Shown: positions 24,335 to 64,000 of the stretch, one piece after another | Numbering within the stretch: the stretch's first letter is position 1 | Layout of the letters: each line of letters begins with the position of its first letter | Assembly (NCBI GenBank): GCA_905221605.1 | Contig: CAJNDS010000466.1 | Location: forward strand, 1-64,000 | DNA from: Symbiodinium natans | Lineage: Eukaryota; Sar; Dinophyceae; Suessiales; Symbiodiniaceae | Direction of reading: 5' to 3' | DNA: 64,000 nucleotides | Translations under genes and position numbers: made by a program | Notes under the pieces: model-generated | The model's database searches: none | Told to the model about the DNA's origin: nothing | The model's input: only the letters and a program-made list of their open reading frames with translations

Positions 24335-24574
24335 CCTTGCCCAGTTTGGGTAATTGCACCACCGTGGCCCAAATCATAGCCAGAATATCCTAAAAACACT
24401 TTACCGTATAGAAAGTAAGGTGCAATGATCTAAAATGGACAAGGTAAGGGGGTCGCCCAGTTTGGGTAATTACATCATCGTCAACCAACTAGTGCTCAGT
24501 AATCCCTAAAACACATTACCATATAGAAAATCATCCTACTTATCAGGTGATGTAACATCCCGAAACGGGCAAGG
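24335..24574. repeat. Inverted-repeat block at the left edge of EVE1
   Basis: Two consecutive hairpin-like units. Unit 1 has arms 24335-24363 (CCTTGCCCAGTTTGGGTAAT..) and 24419-24444. Unit 2 has arms 24454-24480 and 24546-24574. The arms are imperfect copies of the same sequence that bounds EVE2 at 57821-57850 and 58075-58105. AT-rich viral DNA begins immediately after. This is probably a viral terminal repeat. Confidence 0.7.
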
Positions 24575-24666
24575 TTAGGTTTATTCATTTTATGGGGAAT
24601 AGTATGGGGTGTTGGGGTTTCAATAATTATTTAATTGTATTATTAAATTATAATTGGTAGGCTATT

Positions 24667-25281
24667 TTATATAAAATTTGTACATATCATCTCTCCTAGA
24701 AACCGTGTTGCTTCTTCTGAATATAGAAGTTCAAAAGATATATTATCGTCGGCGCCGTCTTTTAACTGATGTATTATTACAATAAAAAACTTACATACTC
24801 TTTGATAAGAATTCAAATAACCACATAAAATATCTTTGAAATAATTCTTTTTCTCTTGATGCCATTTATAGAAATCAAATTTATCTAGGTTTTCATACAT
24901 TGTTTTCATTTCAATATGTAACTCAAGCGTATATTCATCCTTATCCACATAATCTCGTATTATTTTATGAACTTCATCATATTCTGGGTATTTACATAAT
25001 TTAGTAAAAAGGAATGATGTAATCATCAAATAGGTTCCTTAACTTACAACATTTGTCACAGCCATTGTAGTCTGTAATCATATGTGATAAATCATGTAAG
25101 GCATCGCATTTACCTAGTAAGATTTGTTGCCTGTTCTTAACTTGTCTACATGAAGAACAGTTTTTGAAATAATTGGACTTCTTTAGTTCATAATAAAATC
25201 TTCAGTTTCATCATCAGATGAACTTTCATACTCACTCTCACTTTCATATTCATTCTCACTTTCATATTCATTGTCACTCAT
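24667..25281 (-). pseudogene. Viral gene with acidic N-terminus and Cys pairs, frameshifted (EVE1)
   Basis: An ATG at 25281 opens an acidic repeat (SDNEYESENEYESESEYE) that stops after 32 codons. A neighbouring frame continues with NCSSC and CDKCC cysteine pairs, and a third frame carries the last 120 codons (ending EEATRFLGEMICTNFI, 24667). Overlapping frames of consistent composition imply one gene with two frameshifts. No known domain was recognised. No equivalent lies at this position in EVE2. Confidence 0.5.
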
Positions 25282-25359
25282 TTCCACTATAATATATTAA
25301 GTTGTTATTTCTTTAAGTGCTTTTTCTTCAGAAACCTTTCCATAAGAAAACTCCCGTGA

Positions 25360-25560
25360 TCATTCCTTCCCTTTAAGCCTAGATTTTTTATTATGATCTA
25401 AACAAGCCCTACATGTTTTATTATATACCTTCATATAATGCTTACTTACAAACTCACCTACACATTTTACTTGCTTACACGCTTTACACTGCATATACTG
25501 TGTTTTGCAACCACTACCTGTAGGAAACCCAACAGAAATATTATCATCTAATTCACTCAT
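25360..25560 (-). CDS. Small CxxC zinc-binding protein (EVE1)
   Basis: 66 codons, ATG start overlapping the stop of the upstream gene (ATGAGTGA). Two cysteine pairs, CKAC and CRACLD, about 28 residues apart, with a basic tail (NKKSRLKGKE). This CxxC...CxxCL layout is common in small proteins of large algal DNA viruses. Its counterpart in EVE2 is 58189-58467, with CVRC and CGECLD. A role in nucleic-acid binding is inference. Confidence 0.65.
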   Translation of the reverse strand: MSELDDNISVGFPTGSGCKTQYMQCKACKQVKCVGEFVSKHYMKVYNKTCRACLDHNKKSRLKGKE

Positions 25561-25768
25561 TATTATGAATAGGTTTCGTCTCTTCGTTATACTTTATATT
25601 GCAATAATCAAGGGTTGTAGGTTTCGGTTGTAAAATGTCCTTGTTATTCAGTTTCGTCAAATATGCATTCTTTGTATTTTCATACGTTGCATCAACTGGC
25701 GTTCTGTCAAAGTTTCTCGTGGGTCTTCGATTAAATAATTTCTCAATCCTCTCGTCGCAAGATGACAT
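25553..25768 (-). CDS. Unknown small viral protein (EVE1)
   Basis: 71 codons, true ATG, overlapping the next gene by 8 bp, so probably co-expressed with it. Polar, no recognised domain; begins MSSCDERIEKLFNRRP. Not found in EVE2. The overlap and the AT-rich viral codon use support it as a gene. Confidence 0.55.
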   Translation of the reverse strand: MSSCDERIEKLFNRRPTRNFDRTPVDATYENTKNAYLTKLNNKDILQPKPTTLDYCNIKYNEETKPIHNNE

Positions 25769-25971
25769 CTTGCTTGAAGTCAGGTTTATTACCCATATAC
25801 TTAAATATACATTAAGTTTTTAAATAAAAACTTTTATAATAAAACTTTTATATTAAAATTTTCATAAACTGAATAATGAAAATTCTAAACTCCAAACTAA
25901 TTAGGGATGTATCTTATGTATATCCGAATTATGTAAGTGTTCCAAGATACTTCCCCTTTCTCTTGCTCACT

Positions 25972-26015
25972 CACTGGGGTCTGGGACTTAAGCAATTGCA
26001 GAGAGCAATGGGCGC
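25972..26015. promoter_or_regulatory. Conserved GC-rich intergenic motif (EVE1 copy)
   Basis: CACTGGGG at 25972 and GAGCAATGGGCGC at 26003-26015 sit in a GC-rich patch within otherwise AT-rich spacer. The same two blocks occur, closer together, at 58572-58599 in EVE2, in the same gap between the zinc-finger gene and the coiled-coil gene. Function unknown; an origin, promoter or small RNA is possible. An (AT)n run follows at 26080-26098. Confidence 0.45.
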
Positions 26016-26117
26016 ACATTCGGGGTGTTCATCCTGTTTCATTTCTTTCCGGAGAATTCAAAAGAACTTTACACTGTCAATATATATATATATATATAAC
26101 ATCTTTATTTTTAAATA

Positions 26118-26513
26118 TTAATCCAAAATGTTCAAATTTGTTTTCAATTGTTCAACATCTTGTTTTACATCTTCTACTTCTTCCTCAATTTTATCTAGTC
26201 TTTCTTCGCATTCTTCTGGGGTGATTTTCCGATTTTGACTCCATCCTGTACTACACAGTTCAACGCCTCCAGTTTGTGGTACTGTATTTGGTTTAAATAT
26301 TCCATCATCAGGCGACACGCCCCGACCCATTTTAAAACTAGAACGGTCTTCTACAACATTAACAACAACCTTATCATTTTCAGTTGTTGTTTTAGTTTCT
26401 TTATGGTATGTGTTTCTCTTACATCTACAAAATAGACAATTAATGCCATCTTTATTTACACTTACACCGCCATCAGTTCCATCTTTGTTATTCTCTTTGT
26501 TTGAATCGCTCAT
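26118..26513 (-). CDS. Coiled-coil protein with CRCKR motif (EVE1)
   Basis: 131 codons, true ATG. After a polar N-terminus, NCLFCRCKRNTYHKETKT (about residues 25-42) gives a CX2CRCKR cluster. The middle has GVSPDDGIFKPN and SVE/GVELC-type segments. The C-terminus is a Glu/Asp-rich coiled coil beginning TPEECEERLDKIEEEVEDV. It aligns along its whole length with 58695-59102, sharing YHKETKT, NVVED/NIVED, VSPD and TPEECE. No named family recognised; a structural or nucleic-acid-binding role is plausible. Confidence 0.7.
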   Translation of the reverse strand: MSDSNKENNKDGTDGGVSVNKDGINCLFCRCKRNTYHKETKTTTENDKVVVNVVEDRSSFKMGRGVSPDDGIFKPNTVPQTGGVELCSTGWSQNRKITPEECEERLDKIEEEVEDVKQDVEQLKTNLNILD

Positions 26514-26516
26514 ATA

Positions 26517-26675
26517 TTAATGTATATTAGTTTTCTTCAATTTTAAATATTGCACAACCCCTTTACATATTTCCAACACCGAGTAGCAACACCTACGATA
26601 TCTAGGCGTTGTTATTATTATCTATTCTATTTCTTCAAGGTTGTCAATGACATCAATGCAATCAACGTAATTCAT
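26517..26675 (-). pseudogene. Tiny conserved viral gene, interrupted by in-frame TAG (EVE1)
   Basis: 52 codons from an ATG at 26675 to TAA at 26517-26519, with one internal TAG after about 17 codons. The part after the stop contains TPRYRRCCYSVLEICK, matching TPRYRMCCRSLLEFLK in the intact EVE2 copy (59108-59254). Same position: antisense, just upstream of the ATPase. Confidence 0.6.
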
Positions 26676-26711
26676 ATATTCTAACGTATAATTTTCTAAC
26701 TAATATTCATA

Positions 26712-27182
26712 ATGACCGATAATGTTCCAACAGTAGAACCAATTGATATACCCAAGTACCCGTTCAAAAATAGCAAGCATGAGATGATGCCATCTTTACC
26801 TGCGAGAATGTTGGCGGTGGCTTCAAGTACAGGCGGTAAAACAGTTTTAATACAGAATTTAATACTGAAGATTTACCGCAATAGTTTTGAAAGAATATAC
26901 ATATTCAGTCCTAGTGTGGATGTGGACGACACGTGGAACGCAGTGAAGAAGTACATAAAGGATGTAATGAAAGTGGACTCCGAAAAGGAACAGATATATT
27001 TCAATCATGACGACGCAACTGCCTTACAGAAAATAATAGACACCCTACACAAGGTAATAGAGTTCCAGAAGAAGAACAAAGACAAGGACTTATTCAGTAT
27101 ATTAATAGTCATTGATGATTTCGCGGACGACCCAAAATTTGTAAGGTACTCAAGTATCTTGCACGGATTGTTCACAAGAGCC
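26712..27182 (+). pseudogene. A32-like packaging ATPase, truncated (EVE1)
   Basis: 157 codons from ATG. Walker A is ASSTGGKT (37-44) and Walker B is ILIVIDDFADD (130-140), typical of the FtsK-HerA/poxvirus A32-type ATPases that pump DNA into capsids in polinton-like viruses, virophages and giant viruses. Upstream motifs PKYPFKNSKHEMMPSLPARM match EVE2. The reading frame is intact but stops two codons after HGLFTR because viral DNA ends at about 27182 and CCTAAGCCCC repeats begin. The homologue continues for roughly 100 more residues, so sensor/arginine-finger regions are lost and the product would be non-functional. Confidence 0.85.
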
Positions 27183-27490
27183 TAAGCCCCCTAAGCCCCC
27201 CTAAGCCTCCTAAACTCTTTACACCCACACCGCCTAAACCCCCTGAGCCCCCTAAGCCCGCTGAACCCCTATCCCCCCTTAGCCTAAGCCCCCTAAACTT
27301 CCTGAACCCCAAACCCGAAACCCTAAACCCCGAATGTGAAGTCGAACGCCGCTGCTTTGCCAAGCCCAGCGCCGTCGGGCTTGGAGCTCCTCAGGGGGAC
27401 AGCCGGGGCTCTATAGGGTTTAGGGTTTAGGGTTTAGGGTTTAGGGTTTAGGGTTTCGGGTTTAGGGTTTAGGATTTAGGGTTTGGGTTA
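27183..27490. repeat. Degenerate telomere-like repeats joined to EVE1
   Basis: CCCCCTAAGCC / CCTAAGCCCC units at 27183-27330, then 90 bp of unique GC-rich sequence, then TTTAGGG units at 27415-27485. The junction with viral DNA at 27182/27183 is abrupt. Confidence 0.8.
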
Positions 27491-27721
27491 CTTGAGATCA
27501 GGAGTTGGGCTTGTTTGGGGGCGGCCTTGGGGCTTGAGGGATAGTCAGAGCTGGGCCTTTGTTGGGTGGATGTAGGGCTTTGGGGGGTTTCCCTTCGCCC
27601 TTTCCCCGCCCTTGGGGGGGCTGTTCCCGATGTTAAGGCACCATTCGCCTCGCGTACACGCCCCCAGTTCCCGCCCGGTCTCCTGGCCTCGTCCCTGGAG
27701 TGCCCACTCCCGCAGAAGCAT

Positions 27722-27858
27722 AGAGTTTAGAATTTAGGGTTTAGGGCTATGGTTTAGGGTTTAGGGTTTAGGGTTTAGGGTTTAGGGTTTAGGGTTTAGG
27801 GTTTAGGGTTTAGGGTTTAGGGTTTAGGGTTTAGGGTTTAGGGTTTAGGGTTTAGGGC
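27722..27858 (+). repeat. Near-perfect (TTTAGGG)n array
   Basis: About 19 units, nearly perfect over the last 100 bp (27755-27858). Confidence 0.95.
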
Positions 27859-29828
27859 CCAGTATCCCTGGAGTGCCTCCCGACACGTGGGATCGAAGCC
27901 CGTTGCGGTGGGACCCAGATGCAATGCAACCCTCTGCACGCCATTTATCTCCAAGCTGGTGATTTCCGGCACGGGTGGGAAGAGAAGGAATGCCCCATCA
28001 ACCTTTGACTTGAGTGCCGCCGCCCTCAACCCCGAACAGCTGCCATGAGCAACGGTCAGTGCGCTCAGAACAGCGATGCACCATGAAGGCCCCCGCAACA
28101 ACATGTCGCATTCTGCTTTGCCGACCAACAAGCCATAGGCATACAACGCGACGACCACAAGGCACCCCTGTATCTGTCTCTCGGAGTATCCAACGACTTC
28201 AAGGGGTGTCTGGGGAGAAGGGGCACCAGGAGAGATTCAACTTGAAGAGAAATGGTGAAAATGTGCTCACAACGTTTGACAGTAAGACGTGGGGATACCC
28301 TGGTGCCGAGCATGCCTCCGCAGCGCGAAGCAAGATCCCAAGCAAATCAGTTTGGGGTCTTTCCAAGCAACTGCAGACATGCCATGTGTGCAAAGCCAGA
28401 CAAACGAGCAGGCATTTCGATGTCTGCTTCATGCTACCTCAACATCATCCCGGGCATCCCTTGAAATACCCCGGCGCTGATGAGTTCTTCTGGGGTCCTC
28501 GGTCGGGCCCTCGCTTGCAGGCTCACCCTTTGCGGGCTTTCCTCGGAGCATGCCAGGCAAGCTCTGACCGAGGAACAGCTTACATTCTACGACATACAGC
28601 TCAAAGCGGACATCATGCATGTGGTCTCGTGGGCGTCGGGCGCGCGGACTTCACTTCTCCTAAGCGCTTGCCGCCCCCGAAACACAGCGTCATGCAAGAA
28701 GATGGTCATCCACAAGTGTGCAACGGAGCCCCCGGTGTCGGAAGCAGTTGGGCAGGCTTAGGTGGCACGCCGGCTTGACTCCGCTTCGCGGCCTGCCTCG
28801 AGCACGCCAAACCCAAACAACACACCCACAAAGGAAGAAAATCTCTACCCTGTCTCTCTCGACTGCTTTGTGTGCTTCCTTCTCTCCGAGCGCCGCACCG
28901 CTGCCGGAGGAGCTCCTTTAAAGGAAAGGAGAGAGAAGGTGCTTCACACCCCGGGGCCCTTTGGGTGCCCCCCCCCGGAGTCGCACGACTCTGAATCCGG
29001 GAGCGCCCTTCCCTTTCCTTAGGGTTTAGGGTAACCTTCAACCCTAAACCCTAAACCCTAAACCCTAAACCCTAAACCCTAAACCCTAAACCCAACTTCA
29101 CTTCCCCAACTTCCCCCGAGGAACCCAAGCGGCGGTCTCCTCCCGACGCTCTTGCAGTTGCTGGACTTCGGCTTTGACCTGTCCAAAGACGGCGGAGTTG
29201 GGGTGCGCGCAGGCTCCTTCTACAAAAGAGCACTCAACCCCATCAGGGCTTCGGATTTTCGGGGTTTAGGGTTTGAAGAGCAGATGGCCAGAGAAGTCAG
29301 TGTGTGGGAGCGGCAGAGAAAATTAGACGGTGGTCAGGCAGCAAGAAACGTGCAACGTGGGTAGTGCTGGCGGTGCTTTGCCAGGGGCCCTTGCCATTGG
29401 CGGGTTTAAACTTTGCATCGACCCAAGTTCCTTTGTTGTACAGTCTGTCACCCTTTCCAGAAAAACCACGCCTACAGACTTGCTCAGTGCAACGTCAACA
29501 GTCCTACCCTACCAGCAGAACAGGCTTTGGATCATGGCCCCGCCTTTTTTTGTAATTCCTTCGCTTCTCCTTGTGAGCCCATGCTTGGAACTGCACTGGG
29601 ACTGTGCAGGCTTAGCAGCCGCAAGCTCAGGCTCTCAGGTCTAGACCCAACTCTTTTCGGAGGGCCTGCAATCTGACAATCTGCCAAAGAGATGTTCGGG
29701 GTTTTGGGGAGTTTTAGGGAGCTTGGGTGCGTTGAGGCGTTACGCTCAATCAATGCCGCCCATGTGTCGCACATTTCGGTGGCGCCTCCGCTTCAGCCAG
29801 GGCCTTCGCCTGCTTGTCCTAAAACACG

Positions 29829-29830
29829 AG

Positions 29831-29877
<47 letters not shown>

Positions 29878-29882
29878 GAGAA
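29829..29882 (+). repeat. (GA)n microsatellite
   Basis: About 50 bp of GA dinucleotides with a single G interruption. Translates as R/E repeats, which inflates the ORFs across it. Confidence 0.95.
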
Positions 29883-34458: not shown

Positions 34459-34498
34459 GTAACTAGTAACTAGTAACTAGTAACTAGTAACTAGTAAC
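34459..34498 (+). repeat. Tandem 7-mer TAACTAG
   Basis: About 5.5 perfect copies with a short diverged edge (AACGAGTAG). Confidence 0.9.
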
Positions 34499-48378: not shown

Positions 48379-48436
48379 TCCGTATTTATTTCTTTTGTTG
48401 CGAAAGGGCGGAAACTGCAGGCTTCGATGGACATGA

Positions 48437-51400
48437 TCACTGTACAGAATCCTTGGTGAAGAAAGTCACGAGGATTGGAGCTCTGTGAGGAAGGAGTTCG
48501 TGCTGGTTTGCCAAATCTTGGTAACGACAGTCCCGCTCGAGACATCGCCACATGACCTGGCCCGTCTGTAGCTCAAGCCGACAAAAGGTGCTTCTAAGTG
48601 GGAACTGGGCCGGTGAAAACCGCGGTTCAGGAGAGCGAAAACTCTTGGCGTCGTACGCCACGTTGATGCCCATGTCAGCGCGATGATGCCAGCCACGTTG
48701 TTCACCCAGCTTCAGGAGGTGGCCGAGCAGAGGATCGCCAGGTTCCAATGGTTCCCCCATGAGCTCAGCAGTCGAAGTCGGCGCAGCGCGCTTGCGCTGT
48801 CCTTTTGACACCTGCTTTACAAAAGCAGGGCTGTAGGTGACTGACCATTTGCCAGCTGCCATGATGCTGCGCATGTGCGTGAGATCCATGTCCTTGGTAC
48901 CGCCGTCTGCAAACATCAGACTGGTGTTGGGCCTTCTGAGGACACTGCGGAGCCAGGCGATGGTAAAAGCTAGACTTTTCTGGCTGCCGAAACTGTTGGA
49001 GTCATTGTTGGACCTGTCGAATACGTCTTTGGCGTCTACGACGGTGCAGAGGGGCACGGAGTTAAGCGAAGAGTCCAGGGTCGACTTGTGCAAGGGAAGT
49101 CCCCGGACACTTGCAAGAAATCCTCGGCACAACTGGCCCACATCAAAGGCCTCCTCTGTGCTCAGCGTTTCCGCTGCGTACGAGGAGCGGCACACTCGAG
49201 GGATGCGGTGCGACCTCATGTCCAAGATGTTGAACGATCCCGTGCGTCCTGCCATGAGCTCCTCATCAGCCAAGATGATAAAGTAGCAGGCCTGGGAGTA
49301 CACCTTGGTGAGCGGGGCCTCCTGAGACGAGCCCTTCAAGTCGACGTTGCCCAAAGCAGCGTCCGCAACGGCCATCAGGCCGCCCTTGTACGGGTTCACC
49401 CCGCGAAACACCAGCTCAAAGTTGCAGTCCTTCTGGAACTCCCGGACGGCCTGGTTCGCTCTCAGCAAAGTTCCCACCGTAGGCGGAGACTCTCCCTGCA
49501 GCGATGACACGCAGAAGGAAAGGTCGAAGCGAAGTTGGGCCACCAACCACTGAAGACTTCCCAAGACAGCCCTAAGCTGGCGATGTTCAAAGGGTGTCAG
49601 CAGAGCAGCCACATCGGAGCGCCTGCTCTTAGAAAGTGTGACCTCGCGGAGGTTCTCGTGGTAGGTCTTCATGCTCAGGGTGACCGAGCCGTCAGGCTTC
49701 TTGTCAAAGAACTTGCCGCACCAAGTGAAGGAGTTGCGGGTGACCTCACGAAACCCCAGCTCGTCTCCCACCTGCAACAGGGACTTCTCAGCCAAGGCAT
49801 TGCCACCAAGCAGCAAATCATCGACATGACTTATGATCATCCCGCACAAAGTCTTTCGCTCTGGCCCGCTCCAAAGAAACCAGACCGCTTGGTCCAGTGC
49901 CGAGCGAACCCATCCGCGCCGCTCGAGGGAGCTGGCCAGCTTTAGCCACCATTGGCGCGGCGCGTCGGCGAGTCCGAACACGCCTTTCAGGACTTTTGCC
50001 AAGCAACCTCGAGGTAATGGAATTTCAGGGCCCGTCTTCTCGTTGGTGGGGCCGATATACAACTCTCGGGTGACGAATGGATCGCCTTTCAAGAAAGCCG
50101 ACTTAACGTCGGCCGCCAAGAGGTTCCAAGTAGCGCTGTGGTACGCCACCAAGCAAAGTAGAAGGTGTTGGCTCAAACGGCTTCCTGTCGGGGCATCACG
50201 ACGAATCTCACCTTCAAGGTTCGCCCGGTCTTTGAAGCCAGGCACCACCAACCTAGCACTCGGGGCTGGAGGCAAGTTGGCACCCTCTGTCCTAAGGCCG
50301 TCGTTCTTATCGGTCAAGACGAAGCGCGGCGTCATGATTCGATCCAGCTCCCCTTTGCGCGCCAACTCCTTGCGCACGGCGAGGCTCTCTTGCAACGACA
50401 ACACTTTGACAGCGTCATTGTCCACGTAAGCAGACCAGCCTTTAACTGCGGCCTCCTTCCACAGCGTCCTTTCTGAAGGGGACATCTTGGACCAAATTTT
50501 CTCCTTTCGCCCACCAGCGGCACAAACTTCATGAACGTCATCAGGTTGTCCTGCGGGTAAAGGAGCACCAAGTCGCTGAAGAAGCTCATGCTGCGAACTC
50601 GAAGGTAAGCTCCAACGTCCATCCCAGGTTCCGTGGTCAGGGGCCTTCTCGGACACTGAACCCTGCAAGCGGTCACATTCAACTTGAGCCTGAACTTGTA
50701 GGAGTGGATGAAGATCTGCGCCACCTTGAGCTAAGCGAAGTAGCTGTTCGTGATCTAAGGTCAAGGCTTCAAAGGCCGAACGCGCTTCCCCCAACCGCGG
50801 ATCATTCAGAACTACAGGACCCAGAGCAGCCGGCAAAGATGCAGCGCTAATGGACCCAGGTGGTTCTGTAGAAGGTCGATGGGGATCAGCAGCACCGGCA
50901 ACTGACACGTGATCACCAGGTGGTTCTATAGAAGGTCGATGGGGATCAGCAGCACCAACAACTGAAGCTTGATCAGCAGGTGGTTCTGTAGAGAGTCGAG
51001 GAGGATCCGCAACACCAGCGCTCGCTGTAGGAGACACCCGTCGCGAAGAAGGCACCGGCTCCTCCGAAAGCAAAAGAGATGGTTCCACACTCTGGCTGGC
51101 GCTGCGCTTGCGTCCTCTCTCCATCAACGAACGAAGCTCGGCGGCAAAGTCGGCCGGCTGGCCTCGAACAAGAGCTTGCCTTCCCAACTCCACAGCCAGC
51201 GGCTGTCCCTGAGCTCGTCGAAGGGCGTTCTGCATCACGGGGCGGCGCACCAAGTGACCCACTGGCGTCCCAGGCGCAGCGGTCAAGGGCGGCGCTGCCA
51301 AGGTGGAGGGAGCAACCGCGCCAGGCATTGGTGGTTCGGGAAGTTCGGGATCCTCTCTCTCATCAGACTCGGCATCACTGGCCGCCTGACCAAGGTCCTC

Positions 51401-52444
51401 CAAAGGCGTGCGGCCAGTCGAAGTCAGCTCCTTGATTGCCTCTTCCCAGGCGCCAGCGGACAGCTCTTCAAGCGTAGAGGCCGGGCGCACATGTTCAAGC
51501 GCACACTTCGTGACTTGACCTTTGAAGGACAAAAAGGCGTTGGTGACGGCGCTGTCCTCTGAACTCTGCTCCAGAGCCAACACGATTGCCGGCCCGTGCC
51601 AACGACGGAGTTCCAGCCTGCGCCGTCTGGAGGAAGTCGACAGCCGCGGGTCGCCCCGGCGATTTAGCTTTTGAGCCCTCCAGAAATACACAGTGTCACC
51701 TGGCTGTATTGAGCGGGAAATGGTCGGCTCTCGACTTCGAGCAAGTTCAGCACGGCGAATGGCCTTCGAATAATGGAGCCTGATCATGCCGATGCGGGCG
51801 CTTTCTCTCAAAGCCATTCGCTGCTGGAGGGACGGCTCAGCATCTATCAACCCGTGCTCCGCCAGCCTTCCAGAGAAATTGTGGAGGACTGAGCCCTGAC
51901 TGGAGGGCTGTCGACCTGTGACGCTTTGAAGCGGCGTCACGCCTTCTTCATTGACATCTGCATTATAGGCCGAGCAAGCCTCTCCGATGGCATTGGAGAT
52001 CTCTCGGTCTCCCAGGACGACATTGTCTGTGACGATGGCGGCCACCAGCGTTTTGAGTATGCCTCCTGATCTTTCGGCCGGGCTGTTCTGCCACGGCGCC
52101 TGCACGGCGCAGTGCCAGAGGTGCACGGAGTGAGCCGAGCAAAAGGTTTGGAATTCTGCACTGATGAATTCGCGGCCCTGGTCCGCGATAATTTGCCGCG
52201 GCGCACCTAGAATGGGCCACCAATACTGCATCATGAAGTCAATCACCGCAGCTGAAGACTTGTTTGGGATGCGGGCTGCCAGCTGGTACTTGGAGACCGC
52301 GTCGGTGGCATGAGCTACCACAAAAGGCGCGCCAATGGAATCCTCCACAATCAGCAGGTCTAGGTGAGCCCGCTCCCCAACGGCTCGCGGAGCAGGCAAG
52401 CTAGCCACACGGCGGCTTTTCGGACGGCTGCGCTCCAAGCACAC
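48437..52444 (-). CDS. Pol: integrase, reverse transcriptase, RNase H (element 2)
   Basis: 1335 codons open. The nominal start is GTG; the true protein continues from upstream, as CxxC of the pre-integrase zinc site lies just before in this frame. The integrase catalytic triad is D29, D88 and E124. After integrase comes a Pro/Ser/Ala-rich linker with a 20-residue repeat (50857-51036 on DNA). The RT begins at ARLVVPGFK, and its active motif is HVDD at 873-876. RNase H motifs follow (VADAALGNVD, SSYAAETLS, VVDAKDVFD). A C-terminal extension with CLERDCRYQDLANQHELL ends at 48437. This is the most intact part of the element. Confidence 0.9.
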   Translation of the reverse strand: MCLERSRPKSRRVASLPAPRAVGERAHLDLLIVEDSIGAPFVVAHATDAVSKYQLAARIPNKSSAAVIDFMMQYWWPILGAPRQIIADQGREFISAEFQTFCSAHSVHLWHCAVQAPWQNSPAERSGGILKTLVAAIVTDNVVLGDREISNAIGEACSAYNADVNEEGVTPLQSVTGRQPSSQGSVLHNFSGRLAEHGLIDAEPSLQQRMALRESARIGMIRLHYSKAIRRAELARSREPTISRSIQPGDTVYFWRAQKLNRRGDPRLSTSSRRRRLELRRWHGPAIVLALEQSSEDSAVTNAFLSFKGQVTKCALEHVRPASTLEELSAGAWEEAIKELTSTGRTPLEDLGQAASDAESDEREDPELPEPPMPGAVAPSTLAAPPLTAAPGTPVGHLVRRPVMQNALRRAQGQPLAVELGRQALVRGQPADFAAELRSLMERGRKRSASQSVEPSLLLSEEPVPSSRRVSPTASAGVADPPRLSTEPPADQASVVGAADPHRPSIEPPGDHVSVAGAADPHRPSTEPPGSISAASLPAALGPVVLNDPRLGEARSAFEALTLDHEQLLRLAQGGADLHPLLQVQAQVECDRLQGSVSEKAPDHGTWDGRWSLPSSSQHELLQRLGAPLPAGQPDDVHEVCAAGGRKEKIWSKMSPSERTLWKEAAVKGWSAYVDNDAVKVLSLQESLAVRKELARKGELDRIMTPRFVLTDKNDGLRTEGANLPPAPSARLVVPGFKDRANLEGEIRRDAPTGSRLSQHLLLCLVAYHSATWNLLAADVKSAFLKGDPFVTRELYIGPTNEKTGPEIPLPRGCLAKVLKGVFGLADAPRQWWLKLASSLERRGWVRSALDQAVWFLWSGPERKTLCGMIISHVDDLLLGGNALAEKSLLQVGDELGFREVTRNSFTWCGKFFDKKPDGSVTLSMKTYHENLREVTLSKSRRSDVAALLTPFEHRQLRAVLGSLQWLVAQLRFDLSFCVSSLQGESPPTVGTLLRANQAVREFQKDCNFELVFRGVNPYKGGLMAVADAALGNVDLKGSSQEAPLTKVYSQACYFIILADEELMAGRTGSFNILDMRSHRIPRVCRSSYAAETLSTEEAFDVGQLCRGFLASVRGLPLHKSTLDSSLNSVPLCTVVDAKDVFDRSNNDSNSFGSQKSLAFTIAWLRSVLRRPNTSLMFADGGTKDMDLTHMRSIMAAGKWSVTYSPAFVKQVSKGQRKRAAPTSTAELMGEPLEPGDPLLGHLLKLGEQRGWHHRADMGINVAYDAKSFRSPEPRFSPAQFPLRSTFCRLELQTGQVMWRCLERDCRYQDLANQHELLPHRAPILVTFFTKDSVQ
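50857..51036 (-). repeat. 60-bp tandem repeat in the pol linker of element 2
   Basis: Three units starting at 50857, 50917 and 50977, with a few substitutions. Encodes a 20-residue repeat containing GAADPHRPSTEPPGDH. Confidence 0.9.
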
Positions 52445-56410: not shown

Positions 56411-56509
56411 GAGGTCCTCTTCGACGATCGTGACATCCTCGCCGGTCTCAGGGTCTTTCGCCTTGACCGCCTTCTGGTACTCCAGCTCGTCGGGGCTGAA
56501 CTCTTCTCC

Positions 56510-56913: not shown

Positions 56914-56940
56914 GCACACGCCCCGGCACTTTCACCACTC

Positions 56941-56954
56941 AGGCTCCGCTACCA
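56941..56954 (-). promoter_or_regulatory. Primer-binding site of element 2
   Basis: On the minus strand TGGTAGCGGAGCCT follows the 5' LTR after one base, identical to the PBS of element 1 and resembling the complement of initiator Met tRNA. Confidence 0.8.
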
Positions 56955-56955
56955 C

Positions 56956-57109
56956 TGAAGAAGGTAGCCTATGAACCCACAGCAAAGCAGGGCCCACGCG
57001 GCCTACGCTCCTTTTCCTTGCCGCAAGCCAACGGCTGAAGGCCTAAGCCAAAAGGTGATGGCGGAGAAGAGCTCAGCCATGCCATCGATGCCTGATGCAG
57101 GTTTCTACA
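56956..57109 (-). repeat. 5' LTR of element 2
   Basis: 154 bp, identical by eye to 48225-48378, bordered by the ACCTT duplication at 57110. Confidence 0.95.
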
Positions 57110-57114
57110 ACCTT

Positions 57115-57820
57115 CAACATACAGCTTCAACGGGCTTTGTCGAGGACACTTACCTGGCTGAGATACTGAGGCCACGCCTCGCTGGGTTCAGATTTCTGCA
57201 TACATGAAGTGCCGTAGTGGAGACGCAGAGGTATGGCAAACTCACGGATAAATCAACCACTGTTTTTCGCTCACAGTATCACCTCGATACTGCCTCTGTT
57301 TTCCTAGAAGGTGCACTTATCGGTCTCTAGTGGGAAGTCATTGCCATATAACTATATTATATATATATATATATCTCTCTCTCTCTCGCCCGCACACACA
57401 TACATACATGTATATAGTTAATATCACTATCGCACACATGCATTGACAAGAGACTGTCGGGTGCCAGATCTGCGGTGTACAAGGCGCCAGTCAGCGCCTG
57501 CAGTCACGCAAGTTCTGTTGTACTTCACTTGCCAAATTGCGGAGGCTATGTCCCAGAGAAGGTGCCTGATTCCATGCCGCACGTAGCTTCGTGGGCGAGA
57601 TCTTCTCCGACAGGCTTGCTCCAACATGATCCTTGGCGGGCTGGTTTCAACTCGCGCGCCCACTTGCGTGCAACTTCAGGAAGGGACATGAATGGCCCTT
57701 GGCTCAAGGGGTCAAGGGGTTTAGGTTTTGCGCGGTGTCCAAAGGGAGCCTGAGAAGGCGAAGGAAACTCTACACAAGTCACATCCCCAACACTAAACCC
57801 CCCAAAGAAAGTTAGCAGAA
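57115..57820. other. Host DNA between element 2 and EVE2
   Basis: Nothing coding is supported. A mixed microsatellite lies at about 57352-57422: (AT)n, then (CT)n, then (CA)n and TACA units. Confidence 0.5.
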
Positions 57821-58105
57821 CCCTTGCCCATTTTGGGTAATAATACCACCAGTCAACCCATTAGACGATTATTCCTATACTCCCCCCTACACCTCACCAA
57901 CTATATCACCACTACTACCCCATTACCATTTCCAGTATAGGAATAACCGATTACCTCATCCATATAAGAGGAATATTCCTATACTCCCTACTACAATCCC
58001 CCAAATATCACCACTACTTCCCCATTACCAAGACCAGTATAGGAATAACCAATTACCCCATCCATATTCCCTAAGGTGGTATTATCATCCCAAAGTGGGC
58101 AAGGG
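57821..58105. repeat. Inverted-repeat block at the left edge of EVE2
   Basis: Outer arms 57821-57850 (CCCTTGCCCATTTTGGGTAA..) and 58075-58105 are near-perfect inverted copies over about 30 bp. Inside are two direct repeats of about 95 bp (about 57863-57960 and 57972-58068), each bounded by ATTCCTATACT and its complement AGTATAGGAAT. Viral AT-rich DNA starts right after. Homologous to 24335-24574. Confidence 0.75.
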
Positions 58106-58188
58106 TTCTCTCATAGATTTTACTAGGTTTAGTTTCAAAGGTTGTAATCATAATAGAATTATATTCCATAAACTCTTATGAAATGCGC

Positions 58189-58467
58189 TTACATTATACT
58201 TATGTTTTTTAACTCACGTTTCCTTTTATCATTATACTTTTTCATTCCATCAAGACATTCACCGCAAGTAACAGTGGTTCTACACTGCATTAAATACCTC
58301 CCCGTTTTACAATAATAATATCTTTTGAAATGCACTAAGTTCTTCCACTCTTTACATCTAACGCACTGCCTTTCACAATGAGGAGGATGACGCTCGGCAG
58401 AGCCTCGTGAGCATTTGCGACCCTCTGTATTGAAATCCATTGTTATTTTATCAACATATATTGTCAT
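58189..58467 (-). CDS. CxxC zinc-binding protein (EVE2)
   Basis: 92 codons from an ATG at 58467; a second in-frame Met ten codons on is also possible. CVRCKEWKNLVHFK and CGECLDGMKKYNDKR give the paired CxxC pattern seen in the shorter EVE1 gene 25360-25560. Basic C-terminus. Likely nucleic-acid-binding; family not named. Confidence 0.65.
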   Translation of the reverse strand: MTIYVDKITMDFNTEGRKCSRGSAERHPPHCERQCVRCKEWKNLVHFKRYYYCKTGRYLMQCRTTVTCGECLDGMKKYNDKRKRELKNISIM

Positions 58468-58571
58468 ATTATATTATTTTACAATATTTATCATAATTCG
58501 TTAATTATGATAAACCTTGTTTCGAACTAATTAACCATTACCACGCTCTTATGACGTGCTTATGGAAGGCA

Positions 58572-58599
58572 CACTGGGGAAATGGGAGCAATGGGGCGC
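58572..58599. promoter_or_regulatory. Conserved GC-rich intergenic motif (EVE2 copy)
   Basis: CACTGGGG, 6 bp, then GAGCAATGGGGCGC in an AT-rich spacer. Same blocks and same genomic position as 25972-26015 in EVE1. Confidence 0.45.
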
Positions 58600-58694
58600 T
58601 GTCGCTATTATAAGTAAATCACTCTTTACAACATTATTCTTCTAGCTGATAAAACTCAAACAACAATTTAAATCGCTTCTTGTACTTTATATTA

Positions 58695-59102
58695 TTATAC
58701 AATTTTCTTATCAATTTTAAACTTCAATGTTTCAATCTCTACTTCCAATCGTTCTATGTCTTTCTTAATACATTCAATGTCTGTCTCGGTCATTTCTATT
58801 CTCTGTTCGCATTCCTCGGGTGTTATACCATGAGTTCCAAATCCAGTATCACATATTTCAACGCTTCCTGTTTGGTTCTCATTTTTGAATATGTGGTTTT
58901 CATCAGGGCTAACATTCCTTCCTCCAAATTTCATATTATGCCTATCTTCAACAATGTTAGTAGTTATTACATTGTTTTCTTTTACCGTCTTTGTTTCCTT
59001 ATGATATGACTGCCTCTTACATCTACAAGGAATACAAGATACACCTTTAGAGTTTATGAAAAAACCTTTCTTTTTATCGCTATCTGGGCTATCGTTGCTC
59101 AT
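58695..59102 (-). CDS. Coiled-coil protein with CRCKR motif (EVE2)
   Basis: 135 codons, true ATG. CIPCRCKRQSYHKETKT near residue 26, NIVEDRHNMKF and RNVSPDENHIFKNEN in the middle, and a heptad-like C-terminus starting TPEECEQRIEMTETDIEC. Homologous along its length to 26118-26513. Conservation of both the Cys cluster and the coiled coil suggests a structural or DNA-associated viral protein. Confidence 0.75.
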   Translation of the reverse strand: MSNDSPDSDKKKGFFINSKGVSCIPCRCKRQSYHKETKTVKENNVITTNIVEDRHNMKFGGRNVSPDENHIFKNENQTGSVEICDTGFGTHGITPEECEQRIEMTETDIECIKKDIERLEVEIETLKFKIDKKIV

Positions 59103-59107
59103 TTATA

Positions 59108-59254
59108 TTATTTACATTTTTTAACATTTTTGACATAAAAGCAGAATGCCTTAAGGAATTCCAACAAACTACGACAACACATTCTATATCTTGGAGTTTT
59201 TATTATTTCATCAAATTTCTCTATCTCATTTATTACTTCTATGTATTTATCCAT
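59108..59254 (-). CDS. Tiny conserved viral protein, PRYR/CC motif (EVE2)
   Basis: 48 codons, ATG at 59254, TAA at 59108-59110, 5 bp from the start of the coiled-coil gene. Contains TPRYRMCCRSLLEFLK, conserved in the damaged EVE1 copy at the same place. Ends with a Lys/Val-rich stretch. Too short for domain assignment, but conservation between two diverged copies supports it as real. Confidence 0.6.
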   Translation of the reverse strand: MDKYIEVINEIEKFDEIIKTPRYRMCCRSLLEFLKAFCFYVKNVKKCK

Positions 59255-59289
59255 ATATATTTAAATGATATAATTTCTAACTAGTATTA

Positions 59290-60049
59290 ATGTTAGAAGA
59301 TATTCCTAAAGTAGAACCTATAGACATACCCAAATACAATTATAAGAATAGTAAATATGAGATGATGCCAAGTCTACCAGCAAGAATGCTGTGTGTTGCC
59401 TCTTCAACGGGCGGTAAATCGGTTTTAATCGCCAACTTGATATTAAAGATTTACCGAGGTTCTTTGAGAGAATATACATTTTTAGCCCTAGTGTGCATGT
59501 AGATGACACATGGAGAGCAGTCAAGAAATATATTACTGACGTAATGAAAGTGGATACGGAAAAGGAAAAAGTATATTATGAAGAATACGATCCAATTGCA
59601 TTAAAGCATATAATAGAAACACAACACAAGGTAATAGACTTCCAGAAGAAGAATAAGCAAAAGGAATTATTCAGTATTTTAATCGTGGTGGACGACTTTG
59701 CCGATGATCCTGAATTTAGATACTCCAATATCTTGCATGGATTGTTCACACGCGGAAGACATAATGCCATCTCATGTATTTTATCAACACAAAAATATAA
59801 TGTCCTTGCCCCTATAATAAGACTTAATGCCTCGGCACTTTTCATATTCAGACTGAAGAACATGAACGAGGTAAATAGTTTCCTAGAAGAGAATAGTGCC
59901 CTTGTAGACAAGCGAACACTTTATGACATGTATCAACAAGCGGTGACTTTGCGCCTTACTCGTTCTTTTACATAAACACGAACGCTAAAGATGTCAATAA
60001 CATGTTTTATATTAATTTCCAACAACGCTTCGAAATAGGTGACCAATAA
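59290..60049 (+). pseudogene. A32-like packaging ATPase with two frameshifts (EVE2)
   Basis: ATG at 59290. Walker A is ASSTGGKS in the first frame. A 1-nt deletion near 59463-59466 (a T run) shifts the frame; the protein resumes in the 59493-59975 frame with DDTWRAVKKY and Walker B ILIVVDDFADD. A second 1-nt loss near 59940 hides the true C-terminus, which reads on in another frame (APYSFFYINTNAKDV) to a TAA at 60047-60049. Sequence matches EVE1 throughout the shared part. The reading as a decayed gene assumes the two deletions are not sequencing errors. Confidence 0.8.
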
Positions 60050-60072
60050 TATTATTTCCTAAAATATTATTA

Positions 60073-62445
60073 TTAGTCACGACTTCGTCCTGAGGGCGAA
60101 CTTATTTCGCCGTCACGGCTTCGCCCTGAGGATGCTAAAGCATCGTCACTATCACTCTTGTTTTTCTTCAACTTACTTACTTCCTTTTTCAGTTTATCTA
60201 CTTCATTTATTGTTGCCTGTAAAGCACTCCATAAAATTGGCACACATGTTGTGTAATCAAATTTTAAATAACCATCTTTTCCTTCTTTTACTACATTCTG
60301 CCATTCGTCGGGCATCTTCTTCGTTTCCATAAAATCATTAGCAATAAATCCTACACACGATTTACCTTGTTGTCTGTCATCAATAAAATGATATGTTTTC
60401 GGCTTAATATATTTTACTAGTTCTACTGCTTTTTTACTATTTACTTCCTTTATATCTTTCTTTAATCTTTTATCCGATGAAGGAATTAACGACCCTGTAT
60501 ATGAAAGGTCGCCATAAACATCAACACCTGTTGTTGTTGCATCTAATGTTGATAAGTTGTTATTACTTAATCTTATCCATCCGTTGTCATCTGGGTTATT
60601 TATTAATACTCGTTGCTGTCCTGTTATATCATCATGTGTTATTTCTAGGTTACCTAATAAAGTAACTTTCGCTTCGGTTAATGATAACTCCGGCGTGCTT
60701 CCTATAGTTCCAATGATAAAATTAATTGCTCTGTCGGTGTCTCCATTTCTTATATCTAGATCATAATCACTACCATTTACTGTTTCTTTAATTGCTGACG
60801 AATGTTGAAAATAAACACCACCCCACACATCTAAATCTGCTTCTGCTGTTATTTTTCCTATACTGTTGAAAGTCTGATTATTTGTAACTGCTCTGTTAAT
60901 TGTAATTCCGTTAGTGTCGGTTAGTTGTAATGCTATAGTTCCTGTTGTTGGATCGGTTGCTCTGTTTGGTTGGAATGAGAAATTTATTTCGTCATTTGTT
61001 ATTAAGTTTAATGAATTGTTAGCGTCTGCTCTTCTGTATAACTTGCTATTGTTCCATATCAATATTTCATTGTTAAAAGTAGTAGCGCCGTTAAACCTTA
61101 CAGTGGAGCTAAAGTTAGAATTGCCACCATTAACGTTAAGAACATCCACAACGGCATTAGCTCCTATCCCTAATTTATTACATCTCACCGCGTTAGAATT
61201 ATTCATATTCAAAAATAGCTGTTGCGATGTGTCATTGGTATTATAAGCATCAATACTAAAGCCTCTAAATCTTAATTTCCCACTATTATTGGCAATGGCT
61301 ACAACATTACTGGCGTCTGTTGTTGGTTTGTAAATTGTAAGTCCTGAATTGTTAGAAATATTGAAATTATCAGTTTCATAATATATATTATCCTTGAAAT
61401 GTGTCGGTTTAAAAAATGTTGATCCTCCTGTTGTATTATTGCATTCTATATATGTATTTGTGTCAGTATCATCATTAGTTCCATTAATTAATCTTATAGC
61501 GTTCGCGGTTTCATCAATTGATAAATCCATTGATATATTGGATTTAGTAGCATTAGTGTATCTTTCAATACTTGTGTTAGCGTTTGTTAATTCAATATCC
61601 CCCTTTACTGTCAAGTTGCTTGTTATGTCAATTTCACCTCCTATTGTTACATTAGTTGTAATATTTACATTATTCACTGACAAGTCATTATTCATATTAA
61701 TATTCCCCGTAGGGTTTAAGTTCAAATCTACAACACTGTCGTCGCTTGTGGCATTGGCATTAATTTTGTTTCCTTGTAAAGTTATGTAATTTGTAGCATT
61801 CTTAAATACACTAATAATTTTATCTCCTCCTCCTGTTTGATTGCTGAATAGTAATCCTGTAGTTGGTGATATGTTTATCGTCTCGTTGTTTAATGTTAAA
61901 CCACTATGAATAATCGTAGGAGCGCTACAATCAATAATTGGAAATGTAGAAAACCTATCAGTAAAGTCTGATTTAGGAACTCTTAAATCTAAAAAGTTAT
62001 CAATTTCTGTATCGGTATAACCACTGCTACCACCAGCACCTGCTATTAACGTATCTACCTCACCTTTATTATAAAAGTTAGTAGCCAATAATGTGTTATT
62101 TTGATAATTAGTAGATAAATTTGTGTCTATCTGCGTTGATGTATAATAGTTACTTAATGTTGTATCAATCTCGGTTTTATTGTAAAAGTTCGTGGCTAAA
62201 ACTGTGTTAGTTTGATAGTTGTTGGTTAAGTCGTCGTTGATAGCATTAATATTATTGAAGTTCTGCAACTGCTTTGTGTTTAAAACTGCTATGGCGTCGG
62301 TGTTTGCCGTTATGTCTGTTGCGAAGTTAAGATTTTCTACCTCTGTTTTTGTTGCGTAGGTATCTGATATTTCACTTACACCCGTTGAAGATGACAAATA
62401 AAATCTATCTGCATAAACTGCTGTTAGATTGTTTATTGAAGCCAT
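60073..62445 (-). CDS. Virion fibre protein with S74 chaperone domain (EVE2)
   Basis: 790 codons, true ATG, intact. N-terminal about 140 residues are coiled coil with repeats around FYNKTEIDTTLSNYYT, a trimeric-fibre pattern seen in phage and algal-virus tail fibres. Residues about 140-650 are Asn/Thr-rich, low in charge and probably beta-structured. From 656, SSDKRLKKDIKEV starts a peptidase S74 intramolecular chaperone domain, which trims itself after trimerisation (Ser of the SxDxRLK region). GFIANDF and FDYTTCVPILWSALQ are later conserved parts. A coiled coil (VDKLKKEVSKLKK) follows. The protein ends in a short GRSRD repeat. Likely host attachment at the capsid surface. Confidence 0.85.
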   Translation of the reverse strand: MASINNLTAVYADRFYLSSSTGVSEISDTYATKTEVENLNFATDITANTDAIAVLNTKQLQNFNNINAINDDLTNNYQTNTVLATNFYNKTEIDTTLSNYYTSTQIDTNLSTNYQNNTLLATNFYNKGEVDTLIAGAGGSSGYTDTEIDNFLDLRVPKSDFTDRFSTFPIIDCSAPTIIHSGLTLNNETINISPTTGLLFSNQTGGGDKIISVFKNATNYITLQGNKINANATSDDSVVDLNLNPTGNINMNNDLSVNNVNITTNVTIGGEIDITSNLTVKGDIELTNANTSIERYTNATKSNISMDLSIDETANAIRLINGTNDDTDTNTYIECNNTTGGSTFFKPTHFKDNIYYETDNFNISNNSGLTIYKPTTDASNVVAIANNSGKLRFRGFSIDAYNTNDTSQQLFLNMNNSNAVRCNKLGIGANAVVDVLNVNGGNSNFSSTVRFNGATTFNNEILIWNNSKLYRRADANNSLNLITNDEINFSFQPNRATDPTTGTIALQLTDTNGITINRAVTNNQTFNSIGKITAEADLDVWGGVYFQHSSAIKETVNGSDYDLDIRNGDTDRAINFIIGTIGSTPELSLTEAKVTLLGNLEITHDDITGQQRVLINNPDDNGWIRLSNNNLSTLDATTTGVDVYGDLSYTGSLIPSSDKRLKKDIKEVNSKKAVELVKYIKPKTYHFIDDRQQGKSCVGFIANDFMETKKMPDEWQNVVKEGKDGYLKFDYTTCVPILWSALQATINEVDKLKKEVSKLKKNKSDSDDALASSGRSRDGEISSPSGRSRD
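60075..60130 (-). repeat. 20-bp direct repeat encoding the fibre tail
   Basis: GTCACGACTTCGTCCTGAGG at 60075 and a two-base variant at 60111, a 36-bp period. It is GC-rich in an AT-rich gene and encodes the duplicated SGRSRD tail of the fibre. Confidence 0.8.
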
Positions 62446-62485
62446 TATTAAACTAATTTAGATTTTAAATTAGTTTAATGATGGG

Positions 62486-63286
62486 TTATTGATCGTGTTC
62501 CTCCTTTGCTTGTTGACGTTTCTCTCTTCGCTTTCTGTTGATTTCTTCCTTATGCTCTTGGTAGAATTCGCGTCGCTTTTGGTTTTGCTCTTCTTTATGT
62601 TGTTCGTGATATTCTTTGTGTTTCTGTAGTATGGTATCTCTGTTGTTTTCATGATAACCTTTTTTGTATTGTGCTATACGTTCTTTATTATCTTGTCTGT
62701 ATTGTTTATCATATGCTACTCTTTCTTCTTTGTGTTGATCTCTGTATTCTTTGTTTTTTGCTCTTTTAATTTCAATGTTATCATGATAGTTTTTGTTGCT
62801 CTTTGCTTTTATGTATTCTTTGTTATCTTGGTAATGTTCTTTTATATATTCCTGTATTCGTTCCTTGTTTGTATCTCTTCTCTCTTTTTGGTCTTGTAGT
62901 AGTTGTTCTTTATTGTCTTCTTAATACTGTTTCTTTACTGCTTTCACATGTTCATGGTTATCATGTTCCCACTCTTTCTTAGTCCTTCCGTTAATGAGTT
63001 TGTTCAATGTTCCCATCTGCCTAATGTATTCTGCCTCTTTTGCTGTTAGTTGTTCTTTTCTTTCACATGGAAAATCTAGAAGCAGTTCTATATAGAAACA
63101 GTCGCTACCCAGCTCCCTCATTAGGTTGTATAACTTGCTGTCTTTCTTTTTGTATGACTCTACAGATGAGCGATGGTTAGCCATTCGTTTACATAATTTT
63201 TGACATGTAGAACCAATGTATATATCATCAGTTTGTGTGTTTTTGATACAATAGATTTTTCCGTTGGCGAAGTTAATACTACTCAT
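62486..63286 (-). pseudogene. GIY-YIG endonuclease with repetitive tail, in-frame stop (EVE2)
   Basis: ATG at 63286. Residues 1-95 are a GIY-YIG nuclease domain: KIYCIKN and IYIGST for the two strands, KRMANHRSS with the catalytic Arg region, and a downstream Glu in AKEAEYIRQ. After 121 codons a TAA (62921-62923) interrupts. The same frame stays open for 144 more codons to TAA at 62486 and encodes a K/E/Q/Y-rich repeat (units like KEYRDQHKEE, KQYRQDNKER). GIY-YIG proteins with such tails occur in large and polinton-like algal viruses. One substitution explains the TAA. Possible roles are mobility, recombination or a homing nuclease. Confidence 0.75.
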
Positions 63287-63352
63287 TACTGTATATTACT
63301 TAATATTACTGTTTCTTTAAATGCCTTTTATACATAAATTATATACACCTCA

Positions 63353-64000
63353 TCAATCTAAAACCGTTGAAGCCGACTCACTTAACTCGAATATTTGCTC
63401 ACTCACAGCAGTCACAAAAACTCTCTCAATTCCTAGTGCGAAATTTGCGTTGGCTCCTTTGATTTTAAAAGTGATTAAGGAGCCCATTTTCGTGTTGGAA
63501 CCTGTGAAATTCATATCGGGTTGCTTATCGAAATTTATTCCTCCAATAAATTTATCGTTAGCATAGCGGTAAATGTCAATACTAAAGCCATCATAATAAG
63601 GCGACATCACATTTACTGCTCTGCGAAGGAAATACATAAATTCACTGATACTTGATATTTCTTGTTCTGGGAATTTCTTATTGGCTATTTGTATTTGTGC
63701 TGAAATTTGTTTATCGCTATCAATTACGCCTTCTAAATTATCAATGGTTACTGCCATAGGATGGAAAAAGTAGTTCCATCTCTTTCTGTCATAATTACCT
63801 GCTGTGTTGTCATTATTGATATTGCTGTTGCTAAAGGTGAAGAACATCTGAGATAAACGAGTTGAAGATTTTACGATGTTCATGTTGATCTCTGTGTTTC
63901 CTGCCGTGAAGGTTTGTGAAAATGAATAATAAGCAGGATAAACCATTCGAAGCCTACCCCCTTTCAATAAATGTGAAACTATATTATTGTTGACGGTGTT
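63353..64000 (-). CDS. Probable major capsid protein, C-terminal part (EVE2)
   Basis: Open to the right edge, so 5' partial; 215 codons visible. The apparent TTG start at 63967 is not a real start. Segments such as MVYPAYYSFSQTFTAGN, NIVKSSTRLSQMFFTFSNSN and a C-terminus ending VSEQIFELSESASTVLD give alternating beta-strands like the second jelly roll of polinton-like virus/virophage capsid proteins. Its place next to fibre and ATPase genes supports this. A minor capsid or other jelly-roll protein remains possible. Confidence 0.55.
   Translation of the reverse strand, partial: NTVNNNIVSHLLKGGRLRMVYPAYYSFSQTFTAGNTEINMNIVKSSTRLSQMFFTFSNSNINNDNTAGNYDRKRWNYFFHPMAVTIDNLEGVIDSDKQISAQIQIANKKFPEQEISSISEFMYFLRRAVNVMSPYYDGFSIDIYRYANDKFIGGINFDKQPDMNFTGSNTKMGSLITFKIKGANANFALGIERVFVTAVSEQIFELSESASTVLD

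Follow-up and report, generated by a model that had tools for sequence, protein, structure and literature searches.

A complete polinton-like virus with a candidate cargo slot, and a decayed relative, in the genome of the dinoflagellate Symbiodinium natans

Do the two AT-rich islands in a 64,000-nucleotide stretch of the Symbiodinium natans genome, EVE1 and EVE2, represent insertions of a polinton-like virus (PLV), and are such elements fossils, transposons or viruses that still form particles? The stretch (the window; C466:1-64000 of contig CAJNDS010000466.1, in a genome of 759 Mb and 2543 contigs) has a GC content of 31-39% in the two islands, at about 24.3-27.2 kb (EVE1) and from 57.8 kb to past the window end (EVE2), and of 48-62% in the remaining 1-kb windows. 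Our analysis makes it highly probable that EVE2 belongs, as its left part, to a complete PLV that integrated recently and whose copies arise through virions and carry an exchangeable cargo slot, and that EVE1 is what decay has left of one end of an element from a related lineage. The element is ordinary in kind, being a dinoflagellate PLV of a class already published; less ordinary are how complete it is, how many copies exist and how intact they are, together with fibre exchange and the cargo slot.

The complete EVE2 element measures 20,035 bp (C466:57810-77844), of which the window holds the left third. The first-pass annotation had delimited EVE2 as 57821-64000, correctly recognizing a real AT-rich island and missing both boundaries, as the element starts at 57810 and ends beyond the window. 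The terminal inverted repeats (TIRs) characteristic of PLVs are present: the sequence at 57810-58077 returns inverted at C466:77577-77844, with 1 mismatch over 268 bp (267/268). Target site duplications (TSDs) of 5 bp flank each of the five elements for which we read both ends, exactly in four and with one base off in the fifth. The left end AGTTAG recurs in C466, C2014, C1726, C2273, C624 and C1911 (copies are named by contig), while the stretches fetched for C1972 and C2141 did not contain it. Fifteen right ends were examined, of which 10 were located (C2436 by its end motif alone) and two have a partial repeat (C2141, C2403). The capsid genes of C624, C1726, C2014 and C2273 differ by only 1-2 nt and their left flanks are unlike, indicating separate recent insertions. 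Integration is genuine and recent. An abrupt change in GC content at the islands could also be produced by contaminant contigs wrongly joined to host DNA, a concern raised at the outset; however, TSDs enclose whole elements on five contigs with independent flanks, which answers the concern and leaves a misjoin extremely improbable. Two insertion sites have peculiarities of their own. C2014 (L036:1-1214) sits in a GC-rich satellite array with units of about 215 bp, and C1635 (L013:4200-4628) lacks the outer left end and abuts another AT-rich stretch that bears genes by eye, as might result from nesting or recombination of two elements; its next 3.3 kb is identical to C1911.

The gene content agrees with the PLV reading of the first-pass annotation, which is upheld by a double jelly-roll (DJR) capsid, an A32 ATPase, an rve integrase, a phi29-like PolB, TIRs and TSDs. 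The capsid model (mean pLDDT 66) matches the DJR capsids of PBCV-1, SGIV and Sputnik with E-values from 8e-16; the capsid alignment, used as a profile query against the PDB, returned 0 matches. The packaging ATPase expected of PLVs is recognized by Pox_A32 (cut-off 22.8 bits) in EVE1 (27.4) and in the C-terminal piece of the EVE2 gene (32.7), with no Pox_A32 match to the 70-amino-acid (aa) N-terminal piece; the gene is open, at 253-254 aa, in copies C1911, C1635, C585 and C2014. PLVs carry an rve integrase or a tyrosine recombinase, and here the former is present together with 5-bp TSDs; an IS481-type match to the integrase falls below its own cut-off, and the protein is 35% identical to the rve-like gene of an IMG/VR relative, IMGVR_UViG_3300028392_002905 (L015). 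Also beyond the window lie a lipase-like protein (Abhydrolase_1 below cut-off), small proteins, a second protein that is GIY-YIG-like by eye, a 289-aa penton-like protein with no Pfam match that is syntenic with, and 29% identical to, an L015 gene, and a 1331-aa replication protein, in which an N-terminal phi29-like PolB, assigned by predicted fold, is fused to a superfamily 1 (SF1) helicase; the PolB domain may correspond to the protein-primed type B polymerase of Polintons. As a side observation, the 993-aa predicted protein P0162 joins the polymerase-helicase region to an S74 domain, possibly as a fusion or a prediction artefact.

Capsid searches of the genome returned at least 89 rows at no fewer than 86 loci: 38 full-length at 93-100% identity, 33 at 82-87%, 8 at 44-48% and 10 partial. 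The gene is near full length and free of stops in 77 of the 89 rows, and full-length and open in 38 of the 40 at or above 93%. For 19 capsid copies (124 of 171 pairs with dS above 0), the ratio of nonsynonymous to synonymous divergence (dN/dS, as mean dN over mean dS) stayed within 0.057-0.069 across all four divergence bins, and for 14 closer copies it was 0.060 (85/91 pairs). The corresponding values were 0.020 for the ATPase (5/10 pairs, 5 copies), 0.18 for the CRCKR coiled-coil gene (7/10 pairs, 5 copies) and 0.195 for the fibre (28/28 pairs; 8 of nine copies, C1747 being left out as it has no open fibre ORF (open reading frame)).

The fibre gene has a history of its own. At the DNA level, EVE2 and C2014 are 94% identical over the ATPase stretch and 90-93% identical in the surroundings of the capsid. 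Their fibres, compared in 50-aa windows, start at 82% identity at the N-end, fall to 22-24% in the middle, rise to 94-98% over the S74 part and end at 40% in the final tail. Similarly, C624, C1726, C2014 and C2152 have capsids 99% and fibres 65% identical to those of EVE2, while for C2120 the figures are 85% and 80%. The middle of the fibre is exchanged between near-identical elements. S74 fibres as such are known in PLVs, for example in cryptophyte elements (PMC12220804).

These observations bear on what maintains the copies. If they were fossils of a single old burst that is now decaying, the truncation of EVE1, the EVE2 ATPase that runs out of frame near 59470 and the stops in some capsid rows would be expected; the near-perfect TIRs of EVE2 and the open, full-length capsid frames in nearly all rows at or above 93% would not, making this very unlikely. 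It is less far-fetched, if still improbable, that the elements are now transposons, moved within the genome by integrase and polymerase with the capsid genes as passengers: many copies occupy one genome, and copies 1-2 nt apart in the capsid gene occupy different sites. Against such passengers stand the constraint on capsid and ATPase (a comparison that lies outside the integrase and polymerase and is hence incomplete), the predominance of near-full-length, stop-free capsids, and fibre variation suggestive of receptor binding. Strong capsid and ATPase constraint together with exchange of the fibre middle fits copies still arising via virions rather than by transposition alone. For such a virus, an rve (DDE) integrase would insert the element into host DNA by its AGTTAG ends, leaving the 5-bp duplication, the ends and the duplication being observed; the phi29-like polymerase-SF1 helicase fusion, its fold taken from a model, would copy the linear genome; ATPase, capsid and probable penton would package it; the S74 fibre would bind new host cells; and the GC-rich slot inside the right end would carry exchangeable cargo genes. 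The element may also depend on a giant virus.

Several observations weigh against a complete and virion-borne element. No TIR is recognizable at 3 of the 15 right ends (C1635, C1911, C1840), and among the 89 capsid rows 12 are incomplete or interrupted by a stop, including two pieces of the broken C199 copy (95-97%). The lost ATPase frame of EVE2 belongs here as well. Capsid TM-scores are moderate, at about 0.4-0.5; the rve score of 28.5 bits is below the Pfam cut-off of 32.6; polymerase motif C reads KTD, where an IMG/VR relative has DTD, so that catalysis may be altered; and Pfam recognized no maturation protease in the 20 entries scanned, several small ORFs lying outside that scan. Capsid dS has reached saturation in the bin of greatest divergence, low dN/dS could stem from past constraint in a source population, and virion production is something we infer from genome sequence.

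The right end of the element raises a further possibility. The AT-rich body is separated from the right repeat by a slot of about 1.8-3.4 kb, mostly of 45-56% GC as read from tables, where a 332-aa gene of EVE2 adjoins the right repeat. Among the 10 located right ends, eight carry this EVE2-type gene, one a 542-aa NTPase gene (C2014) and one other ORFs (C2436); the partial ends of C2141 and C2403 have yet other ORFs. The EVE2-type gene encodes 318-349 aa in seven copies, and in C1726 it contains a stop and leaves a 273-aa ORF. C2014, with its NTPase, differs in the capsid by 1-2 nt from C624, C1726 and C2273, all of which have the 332-aa-type cargo. Divergence is likewise discordant in both directions, as the pair C466/C1972 shows a difference of 4.9% in capsid and 0.8% in cargo, and the pair C1726/C624 one of 0.07% and 5.3%, respectively, indicating that cargo moves between elements. 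Of the 14 genomic loci of the 332-aa gene, 13 have a capsid gene on their contig at a distance of 10.5-12.7 kb (two of the 13 only 29% identical), the exception being C84 at 40%. Its dN/dS of 0.82 (22/28 pairs, 8 copies) fits diversifying or relaxed selection, to judge from the sequences compared.

What the cargo encodes can be described only in part. HNH_2 scored below cut-off on the 332-aa protein in all three copies scanned, and its nuclease label is therefore weak. For the C2014 NTPase, AAA_16/NTPase_1 were below cut-off, PDB profile matches were weak (best Cdc6 at 0.0046), and of the four relatives that were scanned one, P0289 (48%), showed a Crinkler header, at 21.6 bits where the cut-off is 24.6. 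The NTPase family, which is spread over dinoflagellates and metagenomes, has an invariant QCK in 24 rows that we liken to the motif of QxK nucleases, presumably pointing to a nuclease. PADLOC gave no match to either cargo protein and five weak matches (best E 0.0065) to a 104-aa ORF beside the NTPase; five slot ORFs of C2403, C2141 and C2436 were scanned with no Pfam match above cut-off.

The cargo reading competes with one in which the slot is a random piece of host DNA or a host transposon nested in the element. GC content at third codon positions (GC3) is host-like, at 0.59-0.65 in the slot and 0.62 in a copia ORF, as against 0.26-0.44 in body genes; the contents of C2014 and C2436 are unrelated; the elevated cargo dN/dS could mean relaxed constraint; and the NTPase family occurs widely among dinoflagellates. 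Yet the constant position beside the right TIR, the regular distance of the 332-aa gene from capsid genes and the open frame in 7 of 8 cargo copies speak against host DNA, and we consider this origin unlikely while still taking it seriously. If the slot is a dedicated one, it may swap fast-evolving nuclease-type genes (HNH-like, or a Crinkler-type NTPase-nuclease) that act against competing viruses, for example a helper giant virus, or against other elements; this is a tentative proposal to which we attach a rather low probability, and the function of the cargo is one that we infer. The logic is comparable to that of the defence-gene hotspots of phage satellites. A literature search (most subscription papers lying outside it) found, by title, none on Crinkler-bearing dinoflagellate PLVs, none on PLV cargo or host genes and, for PLV accessory genes and hotspots, the cryptophyte study PMC12220804; this is not proof of novelty.

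EVE1 is a 2.9-kb left-end fragment with an ATPase broken at about 27181. As it ends within the ATPase and is bordered on either side by CCTAAG/CCTGAG repeats, it is read as a deletion remnant. The first-pass annotation had listed six ordered elements common to EVE1 and EVE2, and four of them hold, in the same order and orientation: a terminal repeat arm of 29 nt (0/1000 shuffles), the CRCKR gene (59 of 132 aligned residues identical, or 45%; 0/500 shuffles), the mini-gene (45% over 47 aa, E 6e-8, with a stop in the EVE1 frame) and the ATPase (71% and 75% to two pieces of the EVE2 gene). The CxxC gene is a weak fifth, with 17/50 identity reached in 1 of 500 shuffles, a possible bias from Cys-rich composition and no tblastn match at 1e-2; the GC-rich motif was dropped, as 17 of 500 shuffles reach its score. 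Since the ATPases agree to 71-75% and the CRCKR genes to only 45%, the two islands are separate insertions rather than a recent duplication, as had been proposed. Over 152-156 aa, the EVE1 ATPase shares 77-82% identity with EVE2-type copies C1818, C585, C1635, C1911 and C199; with C1747, C1764 (41 aa only) and L015 the figure is 48-54%. By these comparisons, EVE1 represents a related lineage and not a copy of EVE2.

Where do these elements stand among known ones? Capsid relatives at 41-44% identity carry Skav names, which we take to denote Symbiodinium kawagutii, and protein searches with element proteins returned relatives labelled Skav, Symbiodinium, Effrenium and symbB. One relative in gene order is L015, with similar rve (35%), ATPase (50%), capsid (30%), GIY-YIG (50%), lipase-like (35%) and penton-like (29%) genes and a block of ATPase, fibre, capsid, lipase and penton in matching order; its fibre is S74-like by eye with no tblastn match to the EVE2 fibre. 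In contrast to EVE2, L015 has a separate 1286-aa PolB with no helicase fusion seen, and its GIY-YIG and rve/PolB block are placed elsewhere. A polymerase alignment also matched L057 (IMGVR_UViG_3300049043_000066; 33% to PolB-helicase, rve 37%), where capsid, penton, ATPase and fibre were without match in the 23 kb compared of this 66-kb viral-labelled contig. In IMG/VR, neither the capsid by itself nor its alignment picked up a relative.

Dinoflagellate PLV capsids or Maverick elements have been published from Symbiodinium, Polarella, Oxyrrhis and Breviolum (PMC10120064, PMC7805220, PMC12721341, PMC11071213), a 'Dino' cluster of capsids among them (Bellas et al. 2023, PMC10120064; Bellas & Sommaruga 2021, PMC7805220), and for this reason the suggestion that EVE1 and EVE2 belong to an undescribed dinoflagellate PLV group is unsupported as worded. 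The Dino PLVs are likewise multi-copy, capsid-bearing elements in protists including dinoflagellates, with TIRs, an rve or tyrosine recombinase (YR) integrase and retrotransposons nearby; they differ in that the helicase-linked domain of EVE2 folds as a phi29-like polymerase, and the accessible text describes no cargo slot of the kind seen in EVE2 elements (PMC10120064, PMC7805220). OmPLV of Oxyrrhis marina is similarly AT-rich, about 25 kb long and equipped with an A32 ATPase, GIY-YIG, a PolB-SF1 helicase fusion and copia elements near it; its helicase, however, is N-terminal and it uses a tyrosine recombinase with no TSD, whereas the EVE2 element has an N-terminal PolB, an rve integrase and 5-bp TSDs and thus lacks the features of that lineage (PMC12721341). 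Maverick/Polinton repeats also occur in the Symbiodiniaceae genome of Breviolum minutum, treated there as a repeat class in chromatin data and likened here by description only (PMC11071213). Cryptophyte PLVs share S74 fibres, rve or YREC, TIRs and TSDs, in another host, and no exchangeable right-end cargo is described in the accessible text (PMC12220804).

Features of both islands are collected in Table 1. The CRCKR gene was not found in copy C2014. A TCTA promoter motif, considered as a link to giant-virus late promoters, looked significant upstream of genes against a coding-rich background (7/18, one upstream empty) and was dropped after a dinucleotide control (7/17, p 0.093; L015 1/14). Outside the islands the window is populated by CCCTAAA/TTTAGGG arrays and copia-type ORFs, the latter at 8782-11796 (RVT_2) and 48437-52444 (RVT_2 and rve); long ORFs beside them, up to 56410 (1.4 kb from EVE2), have no Pfam match, and no Rfam families or tRNAs were found in the 64-kb window.

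Table 1. Features of EVE1 and EVE2 (window positions unless marked C466 or L010)
Feature	Position	Strand	Basis or remark
EVE1 left end: two tandem units, terminal arm and inverted arm	24321..24590		units and start by eye
EVE1 ORF, function unassigned	24667..25029	-	no match in loci compared
EVE1 Cys-rich gene	25360..25560	-	ORF, alignment to EVE2 CxxC gene
EVE1 CRCKR coiled-coil gene, 131 aa	26118..26513	-	tblastn
EVE1 mini-gene, frame interrupted	26535..26690	-	tblastn
EVE1 A32 ATPase	26712..27181	+	cut after about 156 aa, at start of CCTAAGCCCC repeats
EVE2 TSD AAGAA	57805..57809; right copy C466:77845-77849		sequence comparison
EVE2 left TIR, 268 bp, begins AGTTAGCAG	57810..58077		includes 102-bp tandem duplication
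EVE2 inner inverted copy of terminal arm	58075..58109		absent from right end
EVE2 small Cys-rich (CxxC) gene	58189..58467	-	ORF, comparison with EVE1
EVE2 GC-richer non-coding stretch	58510..58640		retained in C2014; not convincingly common to EVE1
EVE2 CRCKR coiled-coil gene, 135 aa	58695..59102	-	tblastn
EVE2 PRYR/CC mini-gene	59108..59254	-	ORF, tblastn
EVE2 A32-type packaging ATPase	59290..59975	+	Pox_A32 profile; frame lost near 59470
EVE2 fibre protein, 790 aa, C-terminal Peptidase_S74 chaperone	60073..62445	-	Pfam scan
EVE2 charged repeat ORF, stop to stop	62486..62920	-	by eye like tail of 280-aa GIY-YIG-like ORF in C2014
EVE2 GIY-YIG endonuclease	62921..63286	-	Pfam scan
EVE2 major capsid protein, C-terminal part (488 aa in all)	63353..64000	-	gene extends to C466:64819
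EVE2 cargo slot, GC-rich	C466:75590-77577 (L010:2591-4577), beyond window		332-aa coiled-coil/weakly HNH-like gene

The many near-identical, largely capsid-intact and TSD-bounded copies in this one genome make it possible to test whether dinoflagellate PLVs behave as transposons or as live integrating viruses. For the unassigned helicase-linked domain mentioned by Bellas et al. (PMC10120064), the fused polymerase suggests an identity, provided that the two are the same domain. The cargo slot, if real, would mean that small eukaryotic viruses possess a satellite-like exchange site for conflict genes.
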